From Frateuria aurantia DSM 6220 (lineage in GTDB: Bacteria > Pseudomonadota > Gammaproteobacteria > Xanthomonadales > Rhodanobacteraceae), in contig NC_017033.1 in the NCBI RefSeq assembly GCF_000242255.2, positions 2,615,110 through 2,679,109 of the forward strand: 64,000 nt of DNA, in the 5' to 3' direction. The notes beneath the pieces are model-generated. The model was given only the letters and a program-made list of their open reading frames with translations, did no database searches and had not been told where the DNA came from. This document shows, in pieces, positions 4,758-13,791 of the stretch. Position numbers and translations under genes: made by a program. How positions within the stretch are numbered: the stretch's first letter is position 1; every line of letters starts with the position of its first letter.

Positions 4758-6662
4758 TTAGCGCTTGGTTTCGGCCTCCAGGCGTGCCGTGAATTCGGCA
4801 ACGCTCATGCTGCCAAGGTCTTCACCTGCACGTGTACGTACGGATACCATGCCCTGTTCTTTCTCACGGTCACCGACCACGAGCAGGTAGGGCACCTTCT
4901 GCAACGTATGCTCGCGGATTTTATAGCCGACCTTTTCGTTGCGCAAATCGGACTTCACACGGAAACCCTTTTCGACCAGCTCACGCGCCACCCCGGCGGT
5001 GTAGTCGGCCTGGGCATCGGTGATGTTCAGCACCACCGCCTGAACCGGCGCCAGCCAAGCCGGCAGCAGGCCTGCATAGTGCTCGATCAGGATCCCGATA
5101 AAGCGCTCCATCGAGCCGACGATGGCCCGATGCAGCATCACCGGATGCCGTTTTGTCGAATGCTCATCCACATATTCCGCACCCAGGCGCTCCGGCATCA
5201 TGAAGTCGACCTGCATGGTACCGACCTGCCAGGCGCGGCCGATCGAATCCTTCATGTGGTATTCGATCTTAGGGCCATAGAAGGCACCCTCACCCGGCAG
5301 TTCTTCCCAACTCTCGACGCCGGCCGAACGCAGGGCCGAGCGCAGGGCGTGCTCGGCCCGATCCCAGACCTCGTCACTGCCCAGCCGGTTTTCCGGACGC
5401 AGGGCGATCTTCATCGCGACATTTTCGAAACCGAAGTCGTCGTAGACCTTCATGGCCTGCTGATGGAACGCCGTCACCTCGGACTCGATCTGGGCCTCGG
5501 TGCAGAAGATATGACCATCGTCCTGGGTAAAGGCACGCACGCGCATGATGCCGTGCAGCGCGCCCGACGGCTCGTTGCGATGGCAACTGCCGAACTCGGC
5601 ATAACGGATCGGCAGGTCGCGGTAGCTGTGCAGGCCGGCATTGTAGATCTGCACATGACCCGGACAGTTCATGGGCTTCACCGCATAGGTCCGTTTCTCG
5701 GACTCGGTGAAGAACATGTTTTCCTTGTAGTTGTCCCAGTGACCGGACTTTTTCCACAAGCTGACATCGACAATCTGCGGACCGCGCACTTCCTGATAGC
5801 CGCTCTTGCGATAGACACCGCGGACGTACTGCTCCACGGCCTGCCACAGCGACCAGCCATTGGGATGCCAGAACACCATCCCCGGGGCTTCTTCCTGCTG
5901 ATGGAACAGGTCCAGCTGCTTGCCGATACGGCGATGGTCACGCTTTTCGGCTTCGGCCAGCTGATGCAGATAGGCCTTCAGCTCCTTGTCATTGGTCCAG
6001 GCCGTGCCATAGACGCGGGTCAGCATGGCGTTGTTGGAGTCGCCACGCCAGTAGGCACCCGCCACCTTCATCAGCTTGAAGGCGCGCAGCTTGCCGGTAT
6101 TGGGCACATGCGGACCGCGGCACAGATCGGTGAACTCGCCCTGGCTGTACAGCGACAGTTCCTGGTCGGCCGGAATCGACTCGATGATTTCGGCCTTGTA
6201 GTTCTCGCCCAGTCCGCGAAAGAAGGCCACAGCCTCGTCACGGCTCTTGACGCTGCGGCTGACCGGCAGGTCCTGCTTGACGATGGCTTCCATCTCGGCC
6301 TGGATCTTGTCCAGGTCTTCCGGAGTGAACGGCCGCTCGTAGGCGAAGTCATAGTAAAAACCGTTCTCGATCACCGGACCGATGGTGACCTGGGCCCCCG
6401 GATACAATCGCTGCACGGCCTGGGCCAGCAGATGGGCGGTGGAATGGCGCAGGATTTCCAGCGCTTCCGGACTCTTGTCGGTGATGATGGCCAGACTGGC
6501 ATCATGGTCCATGACATGGCTGGCATCCACCAGCTGGCCGTCCACCTTGCCGGCCAGCGTGGCCTTGGCCAGGCCGGCGCCAATCGAGGCTGCCACCTCC
6601 TGAACCGTTACGGCATGGTCGAACGGCCGCTTGCTGCCGTCGGGAAGAGTGATTTCGATCAT
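4758..6662 (-). CDS. thrS: Threonine--tRNA ligase
   Basis: Class II synthetase for tRNA-Thr with editing of mischarged Ser. The 634-residue protein has the expected order: TGS domain (about 1-62, [20 protein letters not shown]), editing domain ([18 protein letters not shown] near residue 73), catalytic core with the zinc-ligand region [19 protein letters not shown] and [14 protein letters not shown], and the anticodon-binding domain (about 535-634). It is the first gene of the thrS-infC-rpmI-rplT-pheST cluster. The upstream 390 bp separates it from a divergent epimerase gene, so the promoter should lie there. Confidence 0.98.
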
Positions 6663-7053
6663 TGCATCAATACCTGTACAGCACCCGTCAAAGGCGCCGG
6701 TTGGGAAGTCTTAGGGAGATCGGATCGCGCAGGTCGGGCAAGGGATCTGCCGCGGACCAGGCAGGACAGGCCGGGGACAAGGCGCACCGGAAGGTGGCTA
6801 TCCGCGCCGGCGTGTCATCAAGTCGGGAAGTGACGAGTTTGCATGTCGCACACAAGACCTGCGGTCACCCGCTGGCCACCTTCTCTGGTCGAGGTTATCC
6901 CCATACCTTAGGCCTGTTGGCTACCTGCTGTCAATCAAGCCGCCAGGTGGCGGGCATGGTCGTCGCCGGCACCCGACGGGGATCGCATGCAGCGGCCTTC
7001 AACAAAATCCATGAGCGCGTAAAATCGGGACATCTTCAGGAGACTCCCAAGCC
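6663..7053. other. Divergent intergenic region, thrS / epimerase
   Basis: This 391-bp gap lies between two divergent genes and should hold both promoters. I see no convincing ORF, tRNA or terminator in it, and no clear operator-like threonyl-tRNA mimic for thrS. Confidence 0.5.
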
Positions 7054-10628: not shown

Positions 10629-11252
10629 ATGCGAGAAGTCTTTCTGCATGGTTTTCTGGCCAATCTGCGGGGCATTCTGCCCGAAGAATGTGCCGATATC
10701 GTCACCACCTTGTACCACCGTGAGTTTCGACTGTTCGAAGTGCCGATCCAGGCGCCCGAAGCCCTGAACTGCATTCGCCGCATGCGCGAGCGTCTGCCGC
10801 CCGACGGCCTGGTCGGTGCCGGCATGGTCTTCAACCGCGATGACATCGAGGCCGCCTGCCAGGCCGGTGCCAACCTCGTCATCAGCCCGCACTGCGATCC
10901 GGAGCTGATCCGTGACGCGAAACAGGCCGGCCTGGCCTGCATCGCCGGTGCCGCCACTCCCACCGAAGCCTTCCGCGCCGTCAAGGCCGGCGTCGATGCC
11001 CTCAAGTATTTTCCGGCCGAACAACTGGGACCGGGCAGCCTTAGGATCTGGCGAAGCGTGCTGCCCAAGCATCTGCCCCTGCTGCCAGCCGGAGGCATTG
11101 CCACCGGGCAGATCCAAGCCTATGTCCGTGCGGGGGCGGCCGGTTTCGGGCTGGGCCGGGCGCTGTACATGCCCGGCATGGCATGCGCCGAGCTGGATCG
11201 CCGCGCGGAGGCATTCCAGCTGGCCTGGAAACAGGCCCACGGCACCGACTGA
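10629..11252 (+). CDS. dgoA: 2-dehydro-3-deoxy-6-phosphogalactonate aldolase
   Basis: Class I KDPG/KDPGal aldolase fold of 207 residues, cleaving 2-keto-3-deoxy-6-phosphogalactonate to pyruvate and glyceraldehyde 3-phosphate (De Ley-Doudoroff pathway). The catalytic residues are present: NLRGI (substrate Arg), FEVPI (Glu), GAGMV, and the Schiff-base Lys in ALKYFPAE; GGIATG binds phosphate. The ATG at 10629 has AAGG 8 bases upstream. An ATG at 10614 overlapping the previous stop as ATGA is also in frame. It is translationally close to the DgoK-like gene, so the two form one operon. Confidence 0.88.
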   Translation: MREVFLHGFLANLRGILPEECADIVTTLYHREFRLFEVPIQAPEALNCIRRMRERLPPDGLVGAGMVFNRDDIEAACQAGANLVISPHCDPELIRDAKQAGLACIAGAATPTEAFRAVKAGVDALKYFPAEQLGPGSLRIWRSVLPKHLPLLPAGGIATGQIQAYVRAGAAGFGLGRALYMPGMACAELDRRAEAFQLAWKQAHGTD

Positions 11253-11528
11253 CGGAAACCTCCATTCATCCGGCAACACTCCTTCGTGAGCGTGCCAGGC
11301 ATGGATCCGGCGAGATGGAAACCGCGGCTGGCCGGCCAGTTCGAGCCGCCCTCACCACGGAGGCCTCGCCGCCATGGACCATCGACAAAGCCATGCGCGC
11401 CGGCACCGGACTTCTGCCGCGTCAACGCTCACATACCATGGAGGCCCGAATCACACGCTGTGCAAGTTCGTTCGATTAATTTCCTTCGGACCTGTCGTCA
11501 CGGACGACCCTCAGGAGGAGACCCGAAC

Positions 11529-11837
11529 ATGCGTACACTTACCCACGATGAAATGACCTCAGTTGCGGGCGGCGGTGTTTTCGGCGATATCGGAAGCGCC
11601 ATAGGCGGAGCCATCGGCAATGTCGTCGATCTAGGCACCACCCTGCTCGGCCTCAGCACCGATGCCACCGGCCCGGCCGCCAAGCTGGGCGAGGGCATCG
11701 GCCTGATCGCCGATTCGGTACTGAATCCCGGCAACATTCCGGCAGCGATTCTGGACGTCGGCGAAGGCATCGTCGGCATCGTCGGTTTCGGTATCGATGC
11801 CATCCAGCAACTGGGCGCCGCCCACGCCAGCGCCTGA
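11529..11837 (+). CDS. Small glycine-rich peptide with double-glycine (bacteriocin-type) leader
   Basis: A 102-codon gene with a strong AGGAGGAG site about 8 bases before its ATG. The product begins MRTLTHDEMTSVAGG, a typical short double-glycine leader (conserved Leu, acidic Glu, hydrophobic positions before GG) as cut by C39-peptidase ABC exporters of class II bacteriocins and ColV-type microcins. The remaining 87 residues are Gly/Ala/Ile rich, with GxxxG-like repeats (GSAIGGAIG, GEGIVGIVGFG), no cysteine and hydrophobic stretches, which suits a membrane-active peptide. No C39 transporter or immunity gene is recognisable in the window. It sits between dgoA and a sugar porter. A longer in-frame opening from 11286 is not credible. 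Activity is inferred only from the leader and composition. Confidence 0.75.
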   Translation: MRTLTHDEMTSVAGGGVFGDIGSAIGGAIGNVVDLGTTLLGLSTDATGPAAKLGEGIGLIADSVLNPGNIPAAILDVGEGIVGIVGFGIDAIQQLGAAHASA

Positions 11838-11847
11838 GGCACCGCAC

Positions 11848-11871
11848 GCCCCGGATCTGCGGATCCGGGGC
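11848..11871 (+). terminator. Hairpin after the double-glycine peptide gene
   Basis: Perfect 10-bp G+C-rich stem (11848-11857 and 11862-11871) with a TGCG loop, starting 10 bp after the stop codon. No T run follows, so it may protect the mRNA end or act as a weak terminator. Confidence 0.5.
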
Positions 11872-12402
11872 ACCGGCATCGCGTGCTTGTCGTCGCCCGC
11901 CCCGGTCGCCAGCGCATGGCTGGCGCAGTCGTGCCATCCCCGGCGCACCGCAGCAACGAGCCCCAACCGCTTGCTGACCACCTGCACGCTCTCTCCGCAC
12001 ACATCACAAGTGCGAAGCATTCCGATCGCCGGAAAGCATCCCCATGCCGCTGGCTGCCCCGTCCAGTCAGCCCCCACTCGATATCATCGGACAGCCTGCC
12101 TTGGCAGTCATCGCCACGACCATCCATATGGACGTCCATCAGTCAGCATCAATCCGCTCCAAGGCAGCCCCATGATTTACACAAGTATTTGTTGCAACGC
12201 AATATTCAAGACCATCATTCCGGCTCCAAGCTTTGTTGAAAGAAGCGTGAAGGCGTGCATAGAATGTTCGCAAATCACCGCCCCGATCAGGCAACTTGCG
12301 GCCCGATCACCGTCAAGCTCATCGCCATCCCGACGGGCGGCCGTCTGCCGGATCGCGGCCAAGCGCTGACCGCGATCCGGCGCCAGCACAGGAATGCATG
12401 CC
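11872..12402. other. Intergenic region before sugar porter
   Basis: 531 bp without a supportable gene. The part from 12170 to 12260 is lower in G+C than its surroundings and includes an imperfect palindrome centred on GTTGCAAC (12191-12198), which could be a LacI-type operator for the porter. A 65-codon opening from 12173 has no family resemblance and was not called. No immunity-protein-like ORF was found for the upstream peptide. Confidence 0.4.
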
Positions 12403-13791
12403 ATGAGCGGAACAGCAGCAGCCACCCACCGCGGCCCCGGACTTTTCATGATCGGCCTGCTGGCCTCCCTGGCCGGCCTGATGTTCGGTCTGGACATCGG
12501 CGTCATCTCCGGCGCCCAGCAATTCATCGAGACCGATCTGCACGTGTCCGACCAAGCCATGGGCCTGATCGTCAGCGCCATGATGGCTGGCGCGGCCGTC
12601 GGCTCGCTGGGCTGCGGCTGGGCCTCGGCTGCACTGGGCCGCAAGCGTTCGCTGATCGTCGGCGGCATCGTGTTCGTGATCGGTTCCATCGGCTGCTCCC
12701 AGGCGGGCTCTGCCGAAAGCCTGATCGTCTGGCGTTTCGTGCTCGGTCTCGCCGTCGGCGTAGCCAGCTATACCGCGCCCCTGTATATCGCCGAAATCGC
12801 CCCCGAGGCGATTCGCGGACGAATGATTTCCACTTATCAGCTGATGCTGACTTCAGGCATCCTGCTGGCGTTCCTGTCCGATACGGCGTTCAGCTACCAC
12901 GGCCACTGGCGCTGGATGCTTGGCATCATCGCCCTGCCCGGCGTCCTGTTTCTGCTCGGCCTGCTGGTGCTGCCTTTCAGTCCGCGCTGGCTGCTGATGC
13001 GCGGTCGCCGCAAAGAAGCCCACGAGGTGCTGATGGGACTGCGCGGCGGCCTGCGGCGCGTGGTGGATGCCGAAATAGACGATATCGACCGCCAATTGAA
13101 AAAGCCCCAGCAGGGCTGGGGGCTGTTCCGCTCCAGTCCCGACTTCCGCCGCTCGGTGGGGCTGGGCGTGTTGCTGCAGATCATCCAGCAGCTGACCGGC
13201 ATCAATGTGGTGATGTATTACGCGCCGAAGATCTTCCAGACCATGGGCTACGCCGTCGAAGCCCAGATGTGGTTCACCGCCGCCGTCGGTCTTGTCAACG
13301 TGCTGGCCACCTTGCTGGCCATGGCAGTGATTGACCGCTGGGGACGCCGCCCCACCCTGCTGGCCGGCTTCGGCGTGATGGCCGCAGGCCTGGCGGTGAT
13401 CAGCTGGACCATGCGTCATGGCGCGCCCGCCACCCATGGCCTGCAATTGTTCACGGTCATCATGCTGCTGGTCTTTATTGCCGGCTTTGCCATGTCGGCA
13501 GGACCGCTGATCTGGACTCTGTGCTCCGAAATCCAGCCCTTGAAGGGCCGCGACTTCGGCATTGCCGCCTCCACCGTCACCAACTGGGGGGCGAACATGG
13601 TTGTCGGTTTCACCTTTCCCCTGATGCTGAGCGGACTGGGATCCTCCCGGACCTTTCTGCTTTACGCCGTGCTCAACGCCTTGTTCATCGCCTTCACCCT
13701 GGCCCTGGTCCCCGAGACCAAGGGCATGACGCTGGAGGCGATCGAGAACAATCTGATGGCCGGCAAGCCGCTGCGCCGCATAGGTCGTTGA
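12403..13791 (+). CDS. MFS sugar:proton symporter (sugar porter family, GalP/XylE type)
   Basis: Twelve-segment transporter of 462 residues in the inner membrane. Family signatures are GLDIGVISGAQQFI in the first segment, the loop motif ALGRKRSL, PLYIAEIAPEAIRGRM, LQIIQQLTGINVVMYYAP (sugar-binding segment 7), DRWGRRPTLL and the C-terminal PETKGMTLEAIE. Likely substrates are galactose, xylose, arabinose or glucose; its place beside the galactonate-type aldolase favours galactose. The ATG at 12403 is chosen because AGGA lies 9 bases before it, whereas it abuts the alternative ATG at 12394. Confidence 0.92.
   Translation: MSGTAAATHRGPGLFMIGLLASLAGLMFGLDIGVISGAQQFIETDLHVSDQAMGLIVSAMMAGAAVGSLGCGWASAALGRKRSLIVGGIVFVIGSIGCSQAGSAESLIVWRFVLGLAVGVASYTAPLYIAEIAPEAIRGRMISTYQLMLTSGILLAFLSDTAFSYHGHWRWMLGIIALPGVLFLLGLLVLPFSPRWLLMRGRRKEAHEVLMGLRGGLRRVVDAEIDDIDRQLKKPQQGWGLFRSSPDFRRSVGLGVLLQIIQQLTGINVVMYYAPKIFQTMGYAVEAQMWFTAAVGLVNVLATLLAMAVIDRWGRRPTLLAGFGVMAAGLAVISWTMRHGAPATHGLQLFTVIMLLVFIAGFAMSAGPLIWTLCSEIQPLKGRDFGIAASTVTNWGANMVVGFTFPLMLSGLGSSRTFLLYAVLNALFIAFTLALVPETKGMTLEAIENNLMAGKPLRRIGR

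Follow-up and report, generated by a model that had tools for sequence, protein, structure and literature searches.

How might the product of a small double-glycine precursor gene, standing alone in a sugar catabolism locus with no exporter beside it, leave the cell, and what could it do outside? The question is raised by a short frame in a 64,000-nucleotide stretch of DNA (the window) of Frateuria aurantia Kondo 67T, DSM 6220, which was isolated from lily (PMC3910546) and whose genome is a single contig of 3,603,458 bases. Papers are cited here by PMC identifier. A first-pass annotation of the window had described a double-glycine, bacteriocin-like precursor, a view that its leader, its homologues and the presence of a fitting exporter in the genome support.

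A solitary double-glycine precursor gene

The gene lies between an aldolase gene (dgoA) and a sugar porter, as claimed in the first-pass annotation, and its neighbours comprise a DGOK kinase, a KDPG/KHG-type aldolase and the sugar porter. It is solitary, being 276 bp downstream of the aldolase gene and 556 bp upstream of the sugar-porter frame. The strong Shine-Dalgarno sequence (AGGAGGAG, 8 nt spacing) and the 15-residue leader ending in GG (MRTLTHDEMTSVAGG) noted at first pass were borne out. The leader has hydrophobic residues at -4, -7 and -12 and Glu at -8, as in the double-glycine leaders of 15-18 aa with hydrophobic -4/-7/-12 positions by which class II microcins are defined (PMC11494933, PMC13101503). 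The mature part proved to be Cys-free and Gly/Ala-rich as described (22% Gly, 15% Ala, three GxxxG motifs), with a pI of 4.1 and a mass of 8.1 kDa.

Table 1 Features of the precursor gene and of the distant exporter unit (window positions unless a locus or the genome is named)
Feature	Position	Strand	Basis
Precursor gene, 102 aa + stop, ATG start	11529..11837	+	ORF, codon score, leader-profile matches
Shine-Dalgarno AGGAGGAG, 8 nt upstream of ATG	11513..11520	+	sequence
Double-glycine leader, 15 residues, predicted C39 cleavage after Gly15	11529..11573	+	leader alignments; cleavage inferred
Mature peptide, 87 aa, predicted to start GVFGDIGS	11574..11834	+	alignments with Serratia precursors
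10-bp stem-loop directly 3' of stop, no T run	11848..11871	+	z -2.16; 3/200 shuffles equal it
C39-ABC exporter (PCAT), 703 aa	L004 7808-9919; genome 1227807-1229918	-	PF03412 match, alignment
HlyD-type adaptor (membrane fusion protein), 450 aa	L004 9912-11264	-	HlyD_3 above cut-off

The codon usage of the gene fits the host (48.6 bits; 55.6 including the start/SD bonus). The leader pattern combined with a Shine-Dalgarno sequence occurs once in the window, whereas 30 Markov-resampled windows contain it 0.17 times on average; this figure is descriptive only, since the pattern spacing was fitted to this leader. Independent support comes from leader profile A3, which was built without own-genome sequences and detects the gene at E=0.0038. 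Judged from its sequence, 11529-11837 (+) can be regarded as confirmed to encode a real double-glycine secreted-peptide precursor. The profile search proposed at first pass for the 102-residue product gave a divided answer: the leader profile recognised it, whereas the curated families stayed below their cut-offs, with 14.7 of 27 bits for Pfam Microcin V (PF17508, gathering cut-off; residues 1-35) and 24.3 of 37 bits for NF038035 (lactococcin G-alpha/enterocin 1071A, NCBI cut-off; residues 4-28). An AlphaFold model from an 11-row alignment had a pLDDT of 47 and a pTM of 0.30. A search of solved structures with the peptide gave two weak matches (E 0.27 and 0.33).

The first-pass annotation had also suggested regulation with sugar use. 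Control together with galactonate or sugar catabolism would suit a gene placed between an aldolase gene and a sugar porter, but the gaps on both sides speak against it. A crude scan of 11200-12450 found no promoter-like site upstream of the gene in the aldolase-side gap, the sole site being at 12236-12265, downstream, and the five other precursors of the genome adjoin unrelated genes. The suggestion thus found no support, and such control is highly improbable. A pattern scan found no terminator-like site at the gene; the stem-loop behind the stop codon is a possible transcript end. Elsewhere in the window, a 641-aa frame at 4908-6833 (+) runs antisense to a threonyl-tRNA-synthetase-like gene at 4758-6662 (-) and is probably a high-GC artefact.

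A single exporter of Enterobacterales type, 1.40 Mb away

PCATs couple cleavage of the leader by their C39 domain to export through an HlyD adaptor and an outer-membrane pore. The C39 family PF03412 has one match in the whole genome. The exporter concerned carries Cys32, His105 and Asp121, whose equivalents are named as critical for another PCAT in PMC11494933, where leader cleavage is described as well. An HlyD-type gene overlaps the start of the PCAT gene, and an OEP-family gene lies ~5 kb away in a separate gene group. The genome search for a C39 exporter and an HlyD partner, a check proposed at first pass, hence returned both. The remark that no C39 exporter lies near the window gene was also right: the distance is 1,397,166 bp on the circular chromosome (~1.40 Mb), and a leader scan of 19 kb around the PCAT gene found no double-glycine ORF. 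The label "orphan" holds locally but not genome-wide, where one PCAT could serve all precursors and five others are equally unlinked.

With the PCAT as query, 29 related loci were found in genome contigs. Identity is 57-65% with the 12 wholly readable Enterobacterales exporters versus 38-46% with 20 exporters of its own family. The PCAT joins the Enterobacterales exporters in a maximum-likelihood tree (99/100), and another clade unites the 20 exporters of its family (96/99); this sampling is non-random, the family exporters being the best C39 matches and the Enterobacterales set coming from the PCAT-query search. In this tree the PCAT may be either a member of the Enterobacterales group or its sister. 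A 21st family exporter, from Dyella (L117), is 36% identical to the PCAT; it sits on a very long branch and belongs to neither group. The adaptor follows suit, with 41-49% identity to whole Enterobacterales adaptors versus 23-31% over long alignments within its own family. Taken together, the tree and the adaptor make horizontal acquisition the simplest reading. On this comparison, the PCAT and its adaptor are of Enterobacterales type and were probably acquired horizontally. F. aurantia, isolated from a plant and belonging to the Rhodanobacteraceae, has an enterobacterial-type exporter.

Relatives of the window peptide in Enterobacterales

The mature part of the window peptide aligns with Serratia precursors, with 24/48 identical residues for L130 (Serratia ureilytica), 23/48 for L131 (S. 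marcescens 106R) and 20/53 for L143/L146. These alignments have z of 11-12 and were equalled by 0/300 and 0/200 shuffles. The z for Enterobacillus L103 is about 7, and tblastn of the peptide among the fetched loci reached E 4e-6. Precursor residues 16-63 are those that align with the Serratia precursors, while residues 64-102 (the C-terminal 39) are without clear counterpart there. Conservation of the cleavage site, on which the first-pass annotation had laid weight, was found in 10/10 aligned Enterobacterales homologues as G-A, which is classed as a double-glycine site in PMC2784325.

Single-sequence searches were less productive. Among genome contigs, 588 pattern stretches yielded no confirmed relative, a result that is no evidence of absence because the scan also missed the Serratia homologues found by other means. 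A search of plasmids found none. Weak matches occurred in 3 other genomes of 197 in the family (E 0.006-0.01) and in 4 other genomes of 369 in the class (E 0.002-0.007); lying in frames of 182-839 aa, they were taken as a group to be chance. A frame left open by chance would fit the small size of the gene, the lack of a full-length homologue and the empty contig scan. It is hardly conceivable given the homology of the mature part, the codon usage and a leader match obtained without the genome's own sequences.

Profile A2 gave leader matches in 13/16 genomes behind the exporter loci. In one genome, Enterobacillus tribolii (G197), seven leader matches are spread over contigs C1, C2, C3 and C10, with exporters on two of them (L101, L103), and precursors may be scattered there too.

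L131, about 10 kb from a PCAT in S. marcescens 106R, and L130 are followed by membrane ORFs of 132 aa (SD-led) and 130 aa, respectively. These are 78% conserved between S. marcescens 106R and S. ureilytica and are plausible immunity genes. Their counterpart was found neither in the window nor, by a two-row profile without positive control, in the genome. A crude screen for an immunity-like membrane ORF within 900 bp of the window gene found none, in agreement with the first-pass annotation.

The peptide could instead be exported for a purpose other than killing, e.g. as a signal or as a surface/biofilm peptide like EbfG of Synechococcus elongatus. Double-glycine peptides needed for biofilm have been published (PMC4997328). 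In line with such a role, the crude screen came up empty both for an immunity candidate next to the window gene and for SD-led membrane ORFs next to three exporter-linked homologues, those of Enterobacillus (L103) and Tatumella (L105 and L108). At L110 it did find one, which seems to be the end of a transporter encoded upstream. The conserved membrane ORF behind both Serratia precursors, arranged as in a microcin-immunity pair, points the other way, and we regard a non-bacteriocin role as unlikely.

Five further precursors scattered over the chromosome

The genome holds at least six double-glycine precursors: p2626 (the window gene), p492, p1154, p728a, p728b and p2571. The five others occupy four places, the closest 75 kb from the PCAT gene; the farthest in the set of six is 1.40 Mb from it. 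Profile A1, made of 15 leaders (two from the own genome and 13 from relatives' exporter neighbourhoods), detects the window gene, the one at 492618 and three more at E 0.001-0.011; the sixth forms a tandem with one of these. Profile A2 scores all six at E below 3e-5, and these are self-matches, since A2 includes all six own leaders as against two in A1. Profile A3, with zero own leaders, detects 5/6 at E up to 0.017 and misses p728b. Across 197 family genomes, it gives F. aurantia the most matches (5; next 3). The rows of A1 and A3 came from 12/20 exporter neighbourhoods, candidates with other leader lengths being excluded. Two candidates were dropped: a match at 151797 (A1, E 2.75) had no leader or start in frame, and 2516793 was a weak self-match. 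TIGR01847 found only p492 in the genome, below its cut-off.

The neighbours of these precursors include a peptide deformylase, an aspartyl-protease-like gene, a nitronate monooxygenase, a tyrosine recombinase and, judged by eye, an EF-Tu-like gene. A search for a shared upstream motif at five precursor loci gave a best score of 5, equalled in 2/20 shuffled sets.

Two of the places have membrane ORFs. The p728a/p728b tandem (L068 5573-6371; genome about 727.6-728.4 kb, minus strand) is very Gly/Ala- and GxxxG-rich. For p728b, the PF10439 Bacteriocin_IIc score of 32.9 bits exceeds the cut-off of 27.1, and an SD-led membrane ORF of 69 aa overlaps the gene; the group looks like a two-peptide bacteriocin with its immunity gene. 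Behind p2571 comes a membrane ORF of 160 aa, also SD-led. Another family genome (G014) has a relative of p2571 (66% over 64 aa, E 0.03) adjoined by a relative of the membrane ORF (32% over 107 aa, E 5e-9); this pairing is as expected of a candidate precursor with its immunity gene. The G014 relative (L099 about 2098-2526, contig 37) is a frame without complete leader. Just upstream of it lies what by eye is a transposase-like fragment, perhaps the trace of an insertion that cut the precursor.

p492 matches a Serratia precursor adjoining an adaptor gene (46% over 118 aa, z about 23), and p1154 resembles one from family genome G193 (22/49 identical, z 10). With the window peptide and p492 matching Serratia and p1154 matching the family, the six-precursor set is of mixed affinity.

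Linkage of precursors and exporters among relatives

Outside F. aurantia, 32/45 leader matches have a C39 ABC gene no more than 10 kb away, compared with 0/6 of the own precursors (Fisher p 0.0015). The 45 are A3 rows with E up to 0.01, and the C39 ABC genes are those among the matches listed, so that some "unlinked" relatives may in fact be linked. When the 15 profile-source loci are removed, 17/30 are linked versus 0/5 own loci (p 0.045). As 13/45 of the relatives' leader matches lie away from a listed exporter, the unlinked state is not peculiar to F. aurantia. In another Rhodanobacteraceae genome (G022), a microcin-like locus seems to have been triplicated: contig C1 has three equal-score C39 matches and three equal-score leader matches, each pair about 1.8 kb apart, near 2580786 (within L060), 2610594 and 2628336.

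A model of export in trans

We consider it likely that the window gene is a class II microcin-like precursor whose product is cut and exported in trans by a horizontally acquired PCAT, most likely for use against competing bacteria. The peptide is very probably a substrate of that PCAT. For an antibacterial role the chances appear about even, the crude screen having shown no immunity candidate. In this scheme, once the gene is expressed, the C39 domain of the sole PCAT would recognise the 15-aa leader and cut after Gly15. The 87-aa peptide would then exit through the PCAT, the HlyD adaptor and a TolC-type pore, and would most likely act on competing bacteria. The same PCAT probably serves the five further precursors. 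Export in trans is what we infer from the fact that no second C39 domain was found in the genome. Against the microcin reading stand the curated-family cut-offs, none of which was passed, the missing immunity candidate nearby and the unmatched C-terminal 39 residues.

The acquired enterobacterial-type PCAT could also be a general secretion line, the common outlet of at least six scattered genes of mixed affinity, with the window peptide and the other immunity-less ones serving as signals or surface peptides and not as killers. We rate this as quite unlikely. Decidedly unlikely is a relic of an acquired microcin cluster, in which the PCAT would be active for other peptides and the immunity-less window gene silent or decaying. 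Its lone position, without an immunity partner, an upstream promoter-like site in the crude scan or a family relative by single-sequence search, would suit decay, but the intact frame, the strong Shine-Dalgarno sequence, the host-like codon usage and a leader that still matches the exporter's pattern do not. If export in trans is true, precursors that look like "orphans" in their own locus become interpretable. The search for microcins tends to centre on the surroundings of exporters (PMC11494933), and none of the six precursors of F. aurantia is near the PCAT.

Comparison with known systems

Most described microcins come from Enterobacteriaceae (PMC10233263), and Xanthomonas microcin candidates were screened in 2026 (PMC13174018). 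A literature search for a Frateuria bacteriocin found none by title, and the word "bacteriocin" is absent from the genome paper (PMC3910546). Like the Microcin V system (CvaA/CvaB/CvaC), that of F. aurantia has the 15-aa kind of leader, a PCAT with the three critical residues and an HlyD-type adaptor. Unlike it, the window gene has no exporter linkage and, by the crude screen, no immunity gene, and the match to Microcin V covers the leader end only.

The closest likeness is to the class II microcins of S. marcescens (PMC13101503): both the window peptide and p492 are matched by homologues from S. marcescens 106R/S. ureilytica, and the PCAT near these homologues is 60-61% identical to that of F. 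aurantia. The Serratia homologues are shorter (77 and 75 aa against 102), have a G-A site instead of G-G, and are followed at L131/L130 by the membrane ORF that the window gene lacks. Among 40 Serratia class II microcins tested, 12 were inhibitory to the E. coli strain secreting them and 7 produced zones on S. marcescens; more than one microcin occurs in 74% of microcin-bearing S. marcescens assemblies, and SM020 and SM064 sit away from the main cluster (PMC13101503).

The exporter-side precursors of Rhodanobacteraceae share with F. aurantia the leader pattern MxxLxxx(E)xxx(V)xGG, 15 aa long. p1154 and p2571 resemble precursors of G193 and G014, respectively, yet the exporters of these relatives form another clade.

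Several Gly-rich double-glycine precursors per genome are also found in Neisseria meningitidis 8013 and in cyanobacteria (PMC2784325, PMC3140520). N. meningitidis 8013 differs in having two exporter units for five candidates (PMC2784325). In cyanobacteria, some precursors are distant from the clusters, as in F. aurantia, whereas the clusters themselves have several precursors beside the exporter (PMC3140520). Microcins tend to co-locate with PCAT and MFP (PMC11494933, PMC13174018), and more than two per assembly are called rare in PMC11494933. Being near the exporter genes is a usual, non-obligatory trait of class II microcin precursors, absent for the window gene. Precedents for unlinked or distant precursors in Serratia and cyanobacteria limit the surprise; set beside these and the unlinked precursors of its relatives, the dispersal in F. 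aurantia, as judged from the genome, appears unusually complete.
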